From NCBI GenBank assembly GCA_030950395.1, contig JAUZRP010000163.1, positions 1-33,288 of the forward strand: a DNA stretch of 33,288 nt, read 5' to 3'. Shown one piece after another: positions 1-33,288 of this stretch; position 1 is the first letter of the stretch; each line of letters starts with the position of its first letter. The DNA is from Desulfonauticus sp. GTDB lineage: Bacteria > Desulfobacterota > Desulfovibrionia > Desulfovibrionales > Desulfonatronovibrionaceae. The notes beneath the pieces are model-generated. The model ran no database searches. It saw nothing but the letters and a program-made list of their open reading frames with translations, and was not told the origin of the DNA. Made by a program: the position numbers and the translations under genes.

Positions 1-49
1 GCCATGGGGGATGGGTGATCTGTGAACAGTGAACAGGTGTGTGGGGGAT
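1..49. repeat. Degenerate 7-nt tandem repeat, G-rich on +, cut by window edge
   Basis: The first 49 bases read as seven consecutive 7-mers in one phase: GCCATGG, GGGATGG, GTGATCT, GTGAACA, GTGAACA, GGTGTGT, GGGGGAT. It begins at the window edge, so the array probably extends to the left. The GTGAACA/GTGATCT units recur near 2067-2090 and 4193-4216. No function is visible. Confidence 0.75.
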
Positions 50-53
50 TAAA

Positions 54-326
54 ATGAGATTTAAAATTGTAATAATTAGTTTTTTGCTCGTTTTGTTTTT
101 AGTTGGCGTGGTTTTGGCAAAGATCAATATCAACAAGGCAAGTAAAGAAGAATTGACACAATTATCAGGCATAGGCCGGGCTAAGGCTCAGGCAATAGTT
201 GACTATAGAAAATCTCATGGTAATTTTATAAGTATAGAAGAGATAAAAAAAGTAAAAGGGATTGGAGATAAGATTTTTGAGAAAATAAAAGAGGATATAT
301 GTACAGGAGAAGATTGTAAAAAGTAG
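54..326 (+). CDS. ComEA-like exported helix-hairpin-helix protein
   Basis: A 90-residue protein. Residues 1-22 form a hydrophobic signal peptide or membrane anchor ending in VVLA. The rest is a ComEA-type helix-hairpin-helix pair: the ININKAS start, then [15 protein letters not shown] and [13 protein letters not shown], each carrying the GIG turn that contacts the DNA backbone. In the family such proteins bind double-stranded DNA at the cell surface during uptake. In many Gram-negatives short orphan ComEA proteins occur without a complete competence set, and no other competence gene is seen here. I prefer the ATG at 54 over the in-frame GTG at 39, because 39 lies in the heptamer repeat and 54 gives a clean signal peptide; GGGGGAT just upstream is a weak ribosome site. 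The tail [11 protein letters not shown] has two cysteines. DNA binding is inferred from the domain; an in vivo role in uptake is not shown. Confidence 0.8.
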
Positions 327-343
327 CCAAAGGGTCCAAGTTT

Positions 344-448
344 CCCTTCGCCCTTGGCCTATGGCCTATAACCTATAACCTATAACCAATATCCCTTCGC
401 CCATAGCCCAATACCCATAGCCTATGACCTATCGCCTATCCCCCAACA
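344..448. repeat. 15-unit degenerate heptamer array, C-rich on +
   Basis: Exactly 105 bases, divisible into fifteen 7-mers in one phase and each beginning with CC: CCCTTCG, CCCTTGG, CCTATGG, CCTATAA three times, CCAATAT, CCCTTCG, CCCATAG, CCCAATA, CCCATAG, CCTATGA, CCTATCG, CCTATCC, CCCAACA. The consensus is about CCYATRR. It lies between the ComEA-like gene and the PIN operon. It has no open frame of note and no hairpin. Confidence 0.9.
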
Positions 449-472
449 CGTTTACTAGTAGGAGGTTAAAAA

Positions 473-685
473 ATGGAAATTTTAGATTATAAAGATGAAG
501 TTATAAATTTGAAAATCTCTAAAAATTTTTTAAAGGATCCCACTATAAGAAAATTTTTAAAATATATTAGAGTATTAGAAATAATAGAGAAATCAAAAGC
601 ATCTAACAAAGAGATACAAGAAATAGTAAAAGAAATTAAAAAAGCTGGAAAAAAAGAAGTTGAAGAATTGCTAAATGAAAAATAA
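473..685 (+). CDS. Small helical protein, probable antitoxin of a PIN toxin pair
   Basis: A 70-residue charged protein that I do not recognise by family. It looks almost wholly helical and rich in Lys, Glu and Ile, with a stretch around residues 33-68 that could form a coiled coil. It has a very good ribosome site (GGAGG, 7 nt before the ATG). Its last 11 bases overlap the start of the PIN-domain gene, so the two are translationally coupled, the usual antitoxin-before-toxin order. The role as antitoxin is inferred from size, charge, order and overlap only. No ribbon-helix-helix or AbrB motif is evident, so if it is an antitoxin its DNA-binding mode is not obvious. The coding sequence is even more AT-rich than its neighbours, which fits horizontal transfer. 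Confidence 0.6.
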   Translation: MEILDYKDEVINLKISKNFLKDPTIRKFLKYIRVLEIIEKSKASNKEIQEIVKEIKKAGKKEVEELLNEK

Positions 686-1109
686 AATTGTAGTTGATGC
701 AAATATTTTGTTTTCTGCATTATTAAAAAGAAAAAATCCTTTTATAAAAATAATATTAAATGCGAATTGTGATTTTTTTGCACCGAAATTTCTATTTTTA
801 GAGATATTTAAACATAAACATAAAATTGAGAAATTTTCTTCTCTTACTGAAAAAGAGATATTAGAATTAATGGAAGTGTTGTTAGAAAAGTTGGAATTTA
901 TTTCCTTAAAAGAAATAGATAAAAAAATACTAAAGAATACTTATCAAGTATGTGAAATTGATAAATTAGATGTCCCATTTGTGGCATTAACGTTATTTTT
1001 AGATGCAAAACTCTGGACTGGAGATAGAAAATTATGTAGTTCTTTGAAAAATAAAGGTTTTGATATTTGTATTTCTACACAAGAAATTGCTAAATTAATG
1101 ATAGAGTAG
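675..1109 (+). CDS. PIN-domain ribonuclease-like protein (putative toxin)
   Basis: A 144-residue protein with the PIN-domain layout. VVDANILFSALL near the N-terminus carries the first acidic residue (D8), FLFLEIFKHK the second (E43), and the C-terminal half has DKLDVPFVALTL followed by LWTGDRKL, the pair that completes the metal site. PIN proteins of this size cut RNA with Mg2+ or Mn2+, and many are toxins controlled by the upstream gene, as in VapBC. The LDVPFVALTLFLDAKLWTGD stretch is typical of the group annotated as PIN toxin component rather than classical VapC. The gene begins inside the preceding 70-codon gene and no further gene follows in the operon. All key acidic residues seem present, so it is probably active. 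Toxicity is inferred. Confidence 0.8.
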   Translation: MKNKIVVDANILFSALLKRKNPFIKIILNANCDFFAPKFLFLEIFKHKHKIEKFSSLTEKEILELMEVLLEKLEFISLKEIDKKILKNTYQVCEIDKLDVPFVALTLFLDAKLWTGDRKLCSSLKNKGFDICISTQEIAKLMIE

Positions 1110-1116
1110 AAATTGG

Positions 1117-1216
1117 TTGATGGTGGATAGTGGATGGTTTATAGGTGAAGGGAGATAGGCTAAGGGCAAAAGGCTATAGGCGATGGGCGAAGGTTTTAGA
1201 GGTTATAGATGTTTAG
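1117..1216. repeat. Degenerate heptamer array (G-rich on +) passing into a 9-nt-like tail
   Basis: From 1117 to 1193 eleven 7-mers run in one phase: TTGATGG, TGGATAG, TGGATGG, TTTATAG, GTGAAGG, GAGATAG, GCTAAGG, GCAAAAG, GCTATAG, GCGATGG, GCGAAGG. The consensus is roughly the reverse complement of the 344-448 array. It then passes into AGAGGTTATAGATGTTTAG (1198-1216), which also occurs with few changes at 4122-4141. It lies between the PIN operon and csrA, so the csrA promoter must be within or upstream of it. Confidence 0.85.
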
Positions 1217-2043: not shown

Positions 2044-2099
2044 GGGTGAATGGGTAGGGGCAAATTGGGTGAACTGTGTTCGGTGAACGGTTAATAAAT
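2044..2099. repeat. Irregular heptamer-like repeat upstream of kup
   Basis: A G-rich stretch with GGGTGAA, GGGTAGG and CGGTGAA units at spacings near multiples of 7. The 24 bases at 2067-2090 match those at 4193-4216 at 21 of 24 positions. The remaining 70 bases before kup hold no feature I recognise: no riboswitch fold and only a weak ribosome site. Confidence 0.55.
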
Positions 2100-2169: not shown

Positions 2170-4077
2170 ATGAATTCAGGACGTTCTTCTAAATTAAATA
2201 CTTTATTTTTGAGTTATCTTGCTATTGGTGGTATTTTAGGCGATATTGGCACGTCTCCTCTTTATGTAATTTCTTTAACCTTTAAAACTATTCCTATTAC
2301 TCGTGAAAACGTTCAAGGAGTTTTGTCTCTTATTTTTTGGTCGTTTATGTTTTTAAGTTTGAAATATGCAGGTTTAGCCTTAACTCTGGATAACCAGGGC
2401 GAAGGGGGGACCTTTACTCTTTTGCACTTAATTCAAGAGGAAGTCAGAAGATTAAAAGAAAAATTTACAAAATCGAAATTTACTTTGTTTCTTAGTTGCG
2501 CCACTATTTTGTCTATGATTTGTGGAGCTCTGTTGTTGAGTGACGGAGTAATTACTCCATCTATTTCTGTATTGGCTGCAATAGAAGGCGTGGAGGTATT
2601 TTATCCTCATCTTGCAGAATTTGTTTTGCCTACAGCTGCAATAATTTTGTCCGCATTATTCTTTTTTCAAAAAAAAGGAACTGAAAAAATTGCCAAGTTG
2701 TTTTCTCCTATAATTATTATTTGGTTTTTATCTATAGCTTTAGTGGGAATAAAAAATTTATTGTTAAAACCATCATTAGTAAAATCTTTAAGCCCTTATT
2801 ATGCTTATAAATTTTTAACTTCACATCCTTTTAGTCTAATTTTCCCTGTATTAGGTTATATAGTTTTATGTATTACAGGTGGAGAAGCTCTTTATGCAGA
2901 TCAAGCCCATTATTCTAAACCAGCCATAAGATTAGCTTGGTTTGTGGCTGCAATTTGTCTTTTACTGAACTATCTTGGCCAAGGAGCATTTATTTTAACT
3001 TATTACAAATGTAATAATCCTTTTTTTGATATGAGTATATCTTTGGGACATTATTTTTATTTATATCTTTTATTTTTAGCAACATTAGCTGCTATTATAG
3101 CGAGTCAGGCAATGATAACTGGATCTTTTTCAACTTATAAACAAGCTATGGAATTGAGAATGTTGCCCCGAGTAGAGATAAAAAATACTTCTTATAAGAC
3201 TAAAGGACAAATTTACATTCCTACCGTAAATAAAGCAATGTTTGTAGCTTGTTTGGCCACAGTATTTGTTTTTAAAAGTTCTGATGCTTTGGGTGATGCT
3301 TATGGATTAGCTGTTACAGGAGCTTTTATTGGAACAACTTTAATGATGGCAATGGTATTCTTTTTAAGAAGTTATCCTAATCAAATGAAAAAATTTTTTT
3401 CAATGCTGCCTTTGTTAATTTTTTTTCTTATATTTGATGCAGCTTTCTTTTTTTCTAACTTAGGAAAAATTCCTACTGGCGGATGGTTTCCTTTACTAAT
3501 TGCTACGTTTTTGGTGTTTACAATGATAGCCTGGCAAAAAGGATCGTTTCTCTTATATCAATATATTCCCAAAACATCTTTAGAACATTTTATAGAGCAG
3601 TTAACAGAGTTAAAACCTGTTAGTTTACAGGGTACGAATATCTATTTGACTCTTAATACTCAAGAAATCCCAGGTTGTTTATTGGAAGAAGTCAAGCAAG
3701 GATGGATAAAGAAAATAGTGTTAATTGTTACTGTAAAAAATACTCACTCCCCCTGGGGGATACATTATGAAAAAATACTTTTAGTAAATAACGAATATAC
3801 GAAAATATATAGAATTATTATTTATAAAGGATATATGCGTCTTTTTGTGAATATCCCCAATATTATAAGTAGCCTTGAGTTTGAACAAAAACCAAGGACT
3901 TTTATTTTTAGTCTCTGGAATCCGGTAATAACAGAGAAAAGCTGGAAAAAATGGTTATTGTTTTATTTTAAAATTATCTATAAAAATGTGCCCACCTTGA
4001 CCAGACGTTTTTCTATTCCAAGTTCTGAGCTTTTGTATCTAGGGAAAGATATTGAAATTTTTTTCCCTAAAAATTAG
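2170..4077 (+). CDS. kup: Low-affinity potassium uptake protein Kup
   Basis: A 635-residue Kup/HAK/TrkD transporter, the usual length. The first membrane segment holds the family signature GGILGDIGTSPLYVI, with the aspartate thought to take part in K+/H+ symport. TLDNQGEGGTFTLLHLI, GGEALYADQAHYSK and DALGDAYGLAVTGAF are further family blocks. About twelve hydrophobic segments fill residues 12-455, and the last 180 residues are a cytoplasmic domain. The protein brings K+ into the cell with protons and needs no ATP. It stands alone, with a repeat-laden intergenic region on either side. The ribosome site is poor (AGAG, 6 nt from ATG). The ATG is supported by the alignment of the first helix to the family. 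I saw no c-di-AMP or other riboswitch upstream, which is one way K+ transporters are controlled elsewhere. Confidence 0.95.
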   Translation: MNSGRSSKLNTLFLSYLAIGGILGDIGTSPLYVISLTFKTIPITRENVQGVLSLIFWSFMFLSLKYAGLALTLDNQGEGGTFTLLHLIQEEVRRLKEKFTKSKFTLFLSCATILSMICGALLLSDGVITPSISVLAAIEGVEVFYPHLAEFVLPTAAIILSALFFFQKKGTEKIAKLFSPIIIIWFLSIALVGIKNLLLKPSLVKSLSPYYAYKFLTSHPFSLIFPVLGYIVLCITGGEALYADQAHYSKPAIRLAWFVAAICLLLNYLGQGAFILTYYKCNNPFFDMSISLGHYFYLYLLFLATLAAIIASQAMITGSFSTYKQAMELRMLPRVEIKNTSYKTKGQIYIPTVNKAMFVACLATVFVFKSSDALGDAYGLAVTGAFIGTTLMMAMVFFLRSYPNQMKKFFSMLPLLIFFLIFDAAFFFSNLGKIPTGGWFPLLIATFLVFTMIAWQKGSFLLYQYIPKTSLEHFIEQLTELKPVSLQGTNIYLTLNTQEIPGCLLEEVKQGWIKKIVLIVTVKNTHSPWGIHYEKILLVNNEYTKIYRIIIYKGYMRLFVNIPNIISSLEFEQKPRTFIFSLWNPVITEKSWKKWLLFYFKIIYKNVPTLTRRFSIPSSELLYLGKDIEIFFPKN

Positions 4078-4103
4078 CCTTAAGCGTTAAGAATAATAAT
4101 AGA

Positions 4104-4290
4104 CTATGGGCGATGGGTTATAGAGGTTCTAGATGTTTTAGAGGTGCTAAAGGTTGTAAGGGTGTTAGGTGTAGAAGCAGGATGTAAGTAGTGGGTGAAC
4201 AGTGATCTGTGAACGGAATGCTTGTAGGGGCAGACCTGTGTGTCTGTCCGTAATTGATTTTTGTAATTGGTTGTTGGAATTGTGGGCGAG
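4104..4290. repeat. Composite degenerate repeat region between kup and cheX
   Basis: It begins with 7-mers (CTATGGG, CGATGGG), then shifts to 9-mers at 4124-4177: AGGTTCTAG, ATGTTTTAG, AGGTGCTAA, AGGTTGTAA, GGGTGTTAG, GTGTAGAAG. GTGAACA-GTGATCT-GTGAACG heptamers follow at 4195-4215. Next comes an inverted repeat, GGGCAGAC (4228-4235) with GTCTGTCC (4242-4249), preceded by GTAG. After it lie loose TAATTG-type units. No gene is visible. Confidence 0.7.
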
Positions 4291-9092: not shown

Positions 9093-9546
9093 AAGAAAAA
9101 TATGTAATTATAACAGTAAGTTATATTAAGTTATATTTTTTTTAGAGTTTTATTTTGTGACAAATCAGATAAGAATAATTTTTAAAATTACAAAATTGTA
9201 AAATATATAGCTATTTCTTTAACAATTTAAGTAAAGGAAGGAGGATTTGGTTTGTTTTATTGATATTTTTGTAAATATTTATTGGTGAACGAAAAGAAGG
9301 AAAGAGTATAGAAGATTTAAAATTTAAGAAAGAATTAGATTGTTAATGGGACTGGCCTATAAATTTTTGGTTTATTTTCTATTTAATTTGGTTTATATTC
9401 TTTAACCTTAGTTTGAATTATGGCTGATGTCTTAAGCATAGTTTGAGGAATTAGTAATGTTTCTTATTGATTACAAATTGGTTTGGAGGTTAAACGGCTT
9501 TGTACGTAACGCTTAGATTTTATACAAAATTGGAGGAAAAGTATCG
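9093..9546. other. Long AT-rich spacer between amtB and the aminotransferase gene
   Basis: About 450 bases with no supportable gene. Nearest amtB there should be enhancer sites for a sigma-54 activator, but I saw no clear palindrome. AAGGAAGGAGG (about 9234-9244) looks like a ribosome site but no reading frame of length follows it. An ATG at 9346 opens a 19-codon hydrophobic frame without a good ribosome site, which I do not call. Confidence 0.4.
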
Positions 9547-15430: not shown

Positions 15431-15505
15431 CGTATCGCCCGCCCATCGTCCAATAAACAATTACAAATAACCAATCACTAATTACTAATTACAAATTACC
15501 AACTT
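15431..15505. repeat. Heptamer array, C-led and AT-rich on +
   Basis: Phase-locked 7-mers from 15450: CCAATAA, ACAATTA, CAAATAA, CCAATCA, CTAATTA, CTAATTA, CAAATTA, CCAACTT. Just before it are CGTATCG and CCCATCG units out of phase by a base or two. It lies between the gap terminator and the TauE promoter. The next 170 bases, to the promoter, are AT-rich and featureless. Confidence 0.8.
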
Positions 15506-29178: not shown

Positions 29179-29429
29179 CACTTTGATTACAAGCATTTTT
29201 TATGCCAAAGTTTATTTTTTGTTTAACCATTTGAGATCATTAATATTTTTTTTTACACACGACACGATTAATTTCAAAACAGTAGTAAATTTGCAACTAA
29301 TGATTTTTATTAGTAGCTTTTTCGCTACTTTAGTGGTGATAAGTGTAAGGTTTTTTCTTTATTTTTAAATAAAATTTGGTTAGATTTAGTCTTAAAAGCT
29401 AATTTAAGAAGAATATTAGCCTTAAAAGG
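29179..29429. other. Control region of the metal-carrier operon
   Basis: About 250 AT-rich bases between the divergent carrier operon and waaF. AGTAGC (29312-29317) and GCTACT (29324-29329) form a small hairpin. On the minus strand TTGCAA, 18 bases, then ATTAAT could be a weak promoter. I see no gene. Confidence 0.35.
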
Positions 29430-29527
29430 TCATTGGTAGTTAGTAATTGGTAATTGGGGGTTAGGCAATTGGGCTATAGGCTATAGGGCATGGGTGATGG
29501 GACATGGGGGATGGGCTATGTTGTATA
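29430..29527. repeat. 14-unit degenerate heptamer array, G-rich on +
   Basis: Exactly 98 bases in one 7-nt phase: TCATTGG, TAGTTAG, TAATTGG, TAATTGG, GGGTTAG, GCAATTG, GGCTATA, GGCTATA, GGGCATG, GGTGATG, GGACATG, GGGGATG, GGCTATG, TTGTATA. The left third is the TAATTGG type seen in reverse at 15450-15505, and the right part is the GGCTATA type seen in reverse at 344-448, joined without loss of phase. It ends 26 bases before the waaF start. Confidence 0.9.
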
Positions 29528-32224: not shown

Positions 32225-33288
32225 TTATCCCAAATTACCAATCACTAATTCAAACCCCTTTTCGTATAGTCTATTATTTCCTGTCACTTTTCTGGTAAGG
32301 GGATCGTAAAAAAATATTTCTTTTTCAGCCATAAAATCTATGACTTTTACTAAAACTTCACTGTCTTCTTCTCCTGTTTCAAAAAATCCCTTATCTACTA
32401 TAATTTTTATAATCTGTTTAAAAATATCTTTTTCTTTTTTAGTTAAAAATCGTCTCATCAAATCAATTATTTCGCTTTCAGCCAATTTTACTTCGTTTTC
32501 CAGATATTGCTGTAAACTATCAAAATAAATTCTTTTGCGAAACAGCTTTTGAATCAAAGGGATACATCCACCCAGATAATCCCAGATCAAATCTATATCC
32601 TTAAAGCTAAATCCTAAATCCTTCCCTAAAAGCCATTCCTTAACAGTTGCGTAGTCCAGATGATCGATTTTATAAAATTCGCTCGTAACTTTAAGTTTGG
32701 CGTCATTATATATCCTATCTATAAATATGGTATTGGAGCTCAAAAGTATGACGTGGCAAAGATGGGTCTCTTTGGTGAGTCTGACACAAAAATTTAAAAA
32801 CTCTTTTAATAATTCCTTTTCTCCATTATAATAAATCGACTCCAAAGTCTGAATCTCGTCTATAATTAATATCTTTGTCTTTTTTAATTTTTTAAATTTT
32901 TCTATCAATGCGTTAAATAAATTCTTTTTGTTATTTTTTATTCTTTCTAATAATTTGGCCTCTAATCTTATAACTCCTAAATTAAAACCAGCTTTAAATT
33001 CTCCACTAAAATCATCCTGATCCTCTGCTTCTTCAAAAAAGCTATTTATAAAACTAGCATAACTTCCCACCATTAGTCCTCTAAAATTGATGTACTTTAT
33101 CCAGTACTTATCAAAAATCTTTAAGTCTGATGTCCATTCTTTTTCTATAACGTATTCTATCAAGGTAGTCTTGCCTGTGGACTTGGGACCATAGAGCCAG
33201 AGAATCTCTTTTGGTACGTGATCTACCCAATCTTTTAGGTATTGTATTTCCTTTTCTCTATCTATAAATTCATCTTGCCTGAATTCTC
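32225..33288 (-). CDS. Archaeal-type AAA ATPase (ATPase_2 family), cut by the right window edge
   Basis: At least 353 residues; the frame is open to the edge, so the start lies just outside. The visible N-terminus reads FRQDEFIDREKEIQYLKDWV, the usual FIDRE opening of this family, so only a few residues are likely missing. Walker A is LYGPKSTGKTTL near residues 35-46, and Walker B is ILIIDEIQTL. VILLSSNTIFIDRIY and LDYATVKEWLLGKDLG match the sensor and lid regions, and a C-terminal winged-helix region follows (LTKKEKDIFKQII). The family is most common in Archaea such as Thermococcales and is scattered in thermophilic bacteria; its role is unknown, perhaps in DNA or membrane-associated remodelling. 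The last codons (LVIGNLG) come from heptamer-like sequence CAAATTA CCAATCA CTAATTC. Confidence 0.85.
   Translation of the reverse strand, partial: EFRQDEFIDREKEIQYLKDWVDHVPKEILWLYGPKSTGKTTLIEYVIEKEWTSDLKIFDKYWIKYINFRGLMVGSYASFINSFFEEAEDQDDFSGEFKAGFNLGVIRLEAKLLERIKNNKKNLFNALIEKFKKLKKTKILIIDEIQTLESIYYNGEKELLKEFLNFCVRLTKETHLCHVILLSSNTIFIDRIYNDAKLKVTSEFYKIDHLDYATVKEWLLGKDLGFSFKDIDLIWDYLGGCIPLIQKLFRKRIYFDSLQQYLENEVKLAESEIIDLMRRFLTKKEKDIFKQIIKIIVDKGFFETGEEDSEVLVKVIDFMAEKEIFFYDPLTRKVTGNNRLYEKGFELVIGNLG

Follow-up and report, generated by a model that had tools for sequence, protein, structure and literature searches.

The window, the whole 33,288-nt stretch of DNA that was analysed, is the entire contig C72 of genome G000 (2.22 Mb in 172 contigs; assembly 96.9% complete), and same-genus comparisons were made with genomes G001 and G002. 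The nearest named relative of its kup gene is from an uncultured Desulfohalobiaceae bacterium (72% protein identity), and a tRNA was the only known RNA family in the window. Arrays of 7-nt units (heptads) recur along it. Three unit classes recur in the arrays of this genome: A, CC[CT][AT]TNG; B, C[AT]G[AT]TCA together with its reverse complement; and C, C[CTA]AAT[TC]A. The relevant features of the window are:

1..49, minus strand: array of class B units (GTGAACA/GTGATCT) running from class A (GGGATGG), with 26/42 lag-7 matches; the contig and a duplicated ComEA module both have their left edge here
54..326, plus strand: ComEA-like helix-hairpin-helix gene (Pfam HHH_3, 1.3e-23)
344..448, plus strand: class A array of 15 CC-initial heptads (lag-7 self-match)
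473..685, plus strand: small ORF of 70 aa that overlaps the PIN gene; candidate antitoxin
675..1109, plus strand: PIN-domain gene, candidate toxin (Pfam PIN_2, 3.5e-24)
1114..1193, minus strand: array, one of 7 dispersed genome copies of an 80-nt composite made of ordered heptads
2071..2093, minus strand: short, marginal class B run between fliW and kup (from sequence; p 0.02 for 2044-2099)
4116..4155, plus strand: period-9 array GGTTCTAGA, from a family that accompanies the heptads (from sequence)
4195..4215, minus strand: three class B units (from sequence and lag-7 matches)
4224-4250: hairpin repeat GGGGCAGACC...GTCTGTCC, following the three-unit array
15451..15502, plus strand: class C array (CCAATTA/CTAATTA/CAAATTA; lag-7 self-match)
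29428..29520, minus strand: mixed array, class C (TAATTGG) then class A (GGCTATA; lag-7 self-match)
32225..33163, minus strand: ATPase_2 gene (Pfam ATPase_2, 2.7e-23)

The PIN-domain gene is flanked by two arrays of opposite orientation. A Pfam search of the 70-aa ORF gave no match, and it is its position that makes this ORF a candidate antitoxin. Upstream of the class C array at about 15451 lie a gene that we take to be GAPDH-like, from its own sequence rather than a family test, and then a terminator-like hairpin. The family of the ATPase_2 gene is greatly expanded in this genome, and its copies elsewhere are often bounded by arrays.

Period and phase of the arrays

In the window at large, about 28% of bases match the base seven positions away, and this rate served as the expectation. 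At 344-448, where a sequence-only reading had described fifteen units free of slip, all 15 units begin with CC, the phase never slips, and 70/98 positions match at lag 7 (71%, p 6e-19). Matches were similarly in excess at 29430-29527 (58/91, p 1e-12), 1117-1193 (46/70, p 6e-11), 15450-15505 (36/49, p 5e-11) and 1-49 (p 5e-6), so that five of the seven arrays named by that reading lie far beyond chance, with neighbouring units about 62-73% identical. The two it had called looser hold up less well: 4195-4215 has three units only (10/14, p 9e-4), and 2044-2099 is marginal as drawn (21/49), its GTGAACx units being confined to about 2071-2093.

Counting every 42-nt window with at least 28 self-matches gave 96 starts at lag 7, 69 at lag 14 and no more than 13 at any other lag. 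A 409-kb sample of the genome, made up of contigs picked for pattern matches so that array density may be high, held 31 gapless arrays at lag 7 (2813 nt), 22 at lag 14, 15 at lag 21 and 10 at lag 28, compared with 7 at lag 9, 5 at lag 18 and 0-4 at other lags. A second-order Markov null gave 0-1 arrays per lag and one segment over all lags. Period 7 had been open to two objections, that it might be no commoner than other periods or that one recent duplication might account for the arrays; lag 7 and its multiples lead, lag 9 comes next and other lags are nearly empty, and the genome holds many arrays. Lag 9 is the sole other short period clearly enriched; a period-9 family, AGGTTCTAG, adjoins some heptad arrays (window 4116-4155, L017 about 4040-4090 and L034 about 3005-3045). 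Hairpin repeats also accompany the heptads. The repeat GGGGCAGAC...GTCTGCCC stands beside several arrays, and GGGGCAGACCTATGTGTCTGCCC forms a second dispersed family that often adjoins them (window 4224-4250, L017 about 3930-4020, L035 about 9098-9140 and L290); no Y1 transposase matching the GGGGCAGACCTATGTGTCTGCCC family was found in this genome.

In arrays elsewhere in the genome, 384 units contain 6 internal phase jumps, as against 729 unit-to-unit mismatches, in a test that recovered a planted one-base indel 89% of the time. The absence of phase slip thus stands for the named arrays but not as an absolute. A ratio of 6 jumps to 729 mismatches is below usual indel rates, and selection may therefore act on phase. 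Different unit types had been described as joined in phase, and they do share the period of 7, but their consensus columns are offset by 1-2 at CC/CCAATTA junctions; class C is often rotated by 1-2 bases relative to class A. The 80-nt ordered composite occurs at 7 sites in this genome and in 0/40 relatives, and five of the 7 copies are without internal indels.

Comparison with same-genus genomes

Three comparisons show that the arrays are a recent gain in the G000 lineage. No CC/GG heptad arrays were found in 894 kb of G001, which yielded just two low-complexity A- or T-rich segments. Between guaB and guaA, G001 has the conserved end AATTATTAG followed by 11 nt to the ATG, whereas in G000 AATTATTAG directly abuts TAATTGG TAATTAG TGATTGG TGATTGG units. 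Beside gatC, where the G001 genes abut, G000 has an extra gene of about 330 aa, an array and two hairpin repeats; by eye, without a family test, we take this gene to be coiled-coil and nuclease-like. Gene order at large is less telling. Array-bearing gaps are collinear with G001 in 6/16 cases versus 108/180 for other gaps, and a first count that had pointed to a strong synteny break at arrays (0/5 vs 44/87) faded to these figures; judged from gene order, a genome-wide loss of synteny at arrays is only suggestive.

Contig C37 carries window positions 1-464 a second time, and the two copies differ at 2/343 bases over positions 1-343 (flanks 99.4% identical). The C37 array exceeds that of C72 by exactly 77 nt (11 heptads), in part through an internal block repeat. 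Beyond the array, C37 enters a gene that we take from its own sequence to be WecA/MraY-like, whereas C72 enters the PIN-domain pair. Exactly 141 nt at the end of C37 recur at the starts of C37 and C72, an overlap that fits a tandem order C37-C72. The two contigs could alternatively be strain variants within the metagenome bin and not paralogues. The ComEA-like gene has three copies in G000 and a single copy in G001 and G002, where it is followed by the WecA/MraY-like gene; because C37 has this same order plus the array, it represents the ancestral order with an inserted array, and C72 the derived copy.

The third ComEA copy, on C24, is intact as far as GAGAAAATAAAA and then passes into TTGGTAATTGGTAATTAG (TAATTGG) units, which give its stop codon. 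The full ComEA 3′ end is kept in C37 and C72; in C24 the last codons are replaced by repeat units. Because the units occupy the place of the last codons, the C24 joint indicates that its array sequence entered from elsewhere and is no outgrowth of local sequence.

Arrays at gene ends and duplication joints

The arrays of G000 are intergenic, and most begin in the interval from 25 nt ahead of a gene's stop codon to 20 nt past it. Their G-rich strand serves as coding strand in 16/21 cases, and several genes end within an array, which provides the stop. Placement at 3′ ends is weaker in the other genomes that carry such arrays than in G000. At L034:1846-2829, a Transposase_31/Rpn-like gene is broken by an in-frame stop and has arrays on both sides.

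Of 88 ends of duplicated DNA, scored with arrays masked, 18 fall no more than 60 nt from an array, against a background of 3.4%; the excess comes mainly from two gene families. ATPase_2 (PF01637) gives 40 matches in G000, some of them partial, whereas each of the two same-genus genomes gives 8 weak ones. This expansion is lineage-specific and large, and several copies lie at contig ends. We considered ATPase_2 as a driver of the arrays and rejected it: its correlation with them is modest within the order (rho 0.45; 0.41 without G000) and none is visible in heavy carriers elsewhere, and outside the order its number fails to separate carriers from their sisters. An apparent enrichment of arrays at contig ends was also set aside, since most of the contig starts drawn were masked and the multi-copy ATPase_2 also sits there.

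Distribution in the phylum

The class A pattern CCYATAG occurs in 19/395 genomes and 15/246 genera of the phylum, compared with 1 genome for the reversed control; there was no match in nine single genomes of other groups. The heavy carriers, G289, G086, G121 and G000, share the variants CCCATAG, CCTATAG, CCTATCG and CCTATTG and add classes of their own. Class B triplets were found in 57 stretches of a viral collection, against 13 and 1 for permuted controls. Window positions 1110-1200 had no DNA relatives among plasmids, tblastn of translated repeats against plasmids returned mostly cyanobacterial and lactic-acid-bacterial matches of low identity, and a literature text search for the DNA or translated repeat strings found nothing relevant. 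The same-order genomes G027 and G035 gave 74 and 87 matches to the control read backward and zero to the real pattern; to judge from these matches, another family of period-7 repeats is probably present there. In other members of the phylum, some arrays change strand in phase round a short loop to make imperfect hairpins with heptad arms (L143:10046-10121, L140:8176-8264, L132:11926-12018 and L134:2741-2826). The placement at gene 3′ ends, the ties to duplicated or truncated genes and the phylum-wide unit family all went beyond what the sequence-only reading had foreseen.

Interpretation

The arrays look like a fast-growing, self-spreading simple repeat and not like a regulatory code. We give a probability of about 55% to a lineage-specific heptamer satellite that would grow by slippage in 7-nt steps and spread by copying during repair or recombination. 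From a few in-phase heptads, replication slippage or unequal exchange would gain or lose whole units while the bases drift; the C37 and C72 copies display such an outcome at one locus. Blocks of array would then be copied mostly behind stop codons, where insertion does no harm, and into joints of duplication or truncation, probably through microhomology-guided repair copying or recombination between arrays; outcomes of this kind are seen at single loci. Exchange between arrays would finally homogenise them into composites of several unit classes while the period is kept. Continual expansion in 7-nt steps, one of two explanations offered by the sequence-only reading, is supported by the 11-heptad difference between copies, the absence of arrays from the 894 kb of G001 and the large number of arrays. 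The other, a helical-turn or protein-binding constraint, gained no support: units vary freely, and folding beats column permutation for some arrays only. A sequence-specific job for the arrays is probably lacking, and they would act as recombination-prone joints that helped the PIN pair, ATPase_2 and the ComEA copies to duplicate or move.

We infer copying by repair or recombination because the arrays stand at joints and the obvious enzymes went undetected: searches of the 96.9% complete assembly found no match to the Y1 transposase (Y1_Tnp, PF01797) of REP/RAYT systems or to the reverse transcriptase (RVT_1, PF00078) of retroelement-made repeats, although an enzyme could be hidden by the incompleteness of the assembly. 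Against the satellite reading, one degenerate unit family throughout the phylum exceeds what would be predicted from random seeds slipping freely. A dedicated, unrecognised element or enzyme that writes heptads and moves horizontally would explain one such family in 15 genera, and the excesses of CCYATAG and class B over their controls and the presence of arrays where coding sequence was lost all favour it. We nevertheless consider it unlikely, as neither enzyme was detected, the carriers differ in unit classes, and the expansion of ATPase_2, seen in G000, G023, G007 and G008, has no counterpart in heavy carriers from outside the order. Somewhat less probable again is a broader proposal, in which selfish heptamers are written at gene ends or DNA breaks by an unrecognised host or mobile activity, pass between lineages of the phylum, and turn gene 3′ ends into joints at which accessory genes are duplicated, truncated or swapped through in-phase homology.

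The remaining alternatives give the arrays a function, and we hold each to be improbable. Stop trinucleotides recurring every 7 nt, a spacing that 3 does not divide, would fall in all three frames, and the arrays could act as translation stoppers at gene 3′ ends. On the coding strand, counting past the gene's own stop, G000 arrays hold 171 stop trinucleotides, compared with 112±13 in column-permuted arrays, and those of other carriers hold 226, compared with 157±16; between co-directional genes of G000, nearly all arrays lie closer to the stop of the first gene than to the start of the second. Their raw rate, however, is 10.8 per 100 nt versus 7.5 in ordinary G000 3′ intergenic DNA, and this modest excess argues against a function built upon stops. 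Agreement in phase between array and gene stop was rejected as an independent signal, being largely automatic where the gene ends inside the array; moreover, the sister species has the same genes without arrays, 3′ placement weakens in other carriers, and units such as CCCTTCG and CCCATCG contain no stop. A protein-binding or helical-phase array would account for a phase that is near-fixed while sequence drifts, and related Beggiatoaceae repeats have been proposed as regulator sites (PMC4679880), but the unit classes lack a common conserved core, position is not conserved across the compared species and 7 bp amounts to two thirds of a helical turn; we regard this as very improbable. Slightly less credible still is a hairpin or terminator element. 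Strands switch in phase in L143, L140, L132, L024:14219 and L035:10278, and at 344-443 folding of the G-rich strand surpasses that of 60/60 column permutations, yet in most G000 arrays folding is no better than after permutation, a separate terminator-like hairpin stands before the array at 15451, and the guaB-guaA array sits between two genes of a likely operon. A palindromic-hexamer hairpin as the reason for a length of 7 was likewise discarded, column-permutation folding backing some arrays only.

Relation to known heptamer repeats

Filamentous cyanobacteria carry STRR heptamers, which, as here, comprise several 7-nt unit types per genome, although the units differ, and which a host protein binds. 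A Calothrix report on these heptamers is cited in PMC4692102. According to Mrazek et al. (2007), as cited in PMC4679880 and PMC4692102, 7 is the commonest long-repeat unit length in most genomes; polymerase slippage is proposed, with the length of DNA contacting the polymerase as the reason for 7. Like heptanucleotide LSSRs, the arrays have head-to-tail 7-nt units above chance and above other periods, and a change in whole-unit copy number was found at one locus (77 nt). In contrast to LSSRs, with their perfect or near-perfect units, copies here are degenerate, composite and dispersed in blocks.

The TAACTGA repeats of Beggiatoaceae, Cyanobacteria and Bacteroidetes are intergenic 7-nt direct repeats of patchy distribution (PMC4679880). 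They resemble the present arrays in their 7-nt-step indels between related strains, their mixing of heptamers, their suspected role in gene rearrangement and their absence from some close relatives. In the TAACTGA case that has been studied most closely, a single exact unit prevails and its near variants are seldom repeated, whereas the units here are degenerate and of several classes; in Beggiatoaceae those repeats lie mostly just upstream of start codons, whereas the G000 arrays lie mostly just downstream of stop codons. The G000 array listings held no TAACTGA array, the nearest being class B CTGATCA/CTGTTCA. The GGGAATC and GGGGA(C/T)T heptamers of Xanthomonas and Nostoc are intergenic and variable in length and sequence (PMC4692102). 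Those of Xanthomonas share the 3′ bias: their mean distance is 28 nt to the 5′ neighbouring ORF and 160 nt to the downstream one. The Xanthomonas and Nostoc units form quadruplexes, while classes B and C have no GGG run; and those repeats mostly occupy the same gene intervals across related species, whereas the arrays here are missing from the compared same-genus genome.

G000 offers a case recent enough to compare, with empty sites in a sister species, a counted change of 11 units and a gene end replaced, and a degenerate unit family common to distant genera makes horizontal spread versus convergent slippage testable. Patchy heptamer repeats with 7-nt indels and a suspected role in rearrangement are already known (PMC4679880). 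As far as the searched literature goes, the new features are arrays of degenerate units in several classes whose unit family spans the phylum, their position behind stop codons in this lineage, and one documented gene end that repeat units have replaced.
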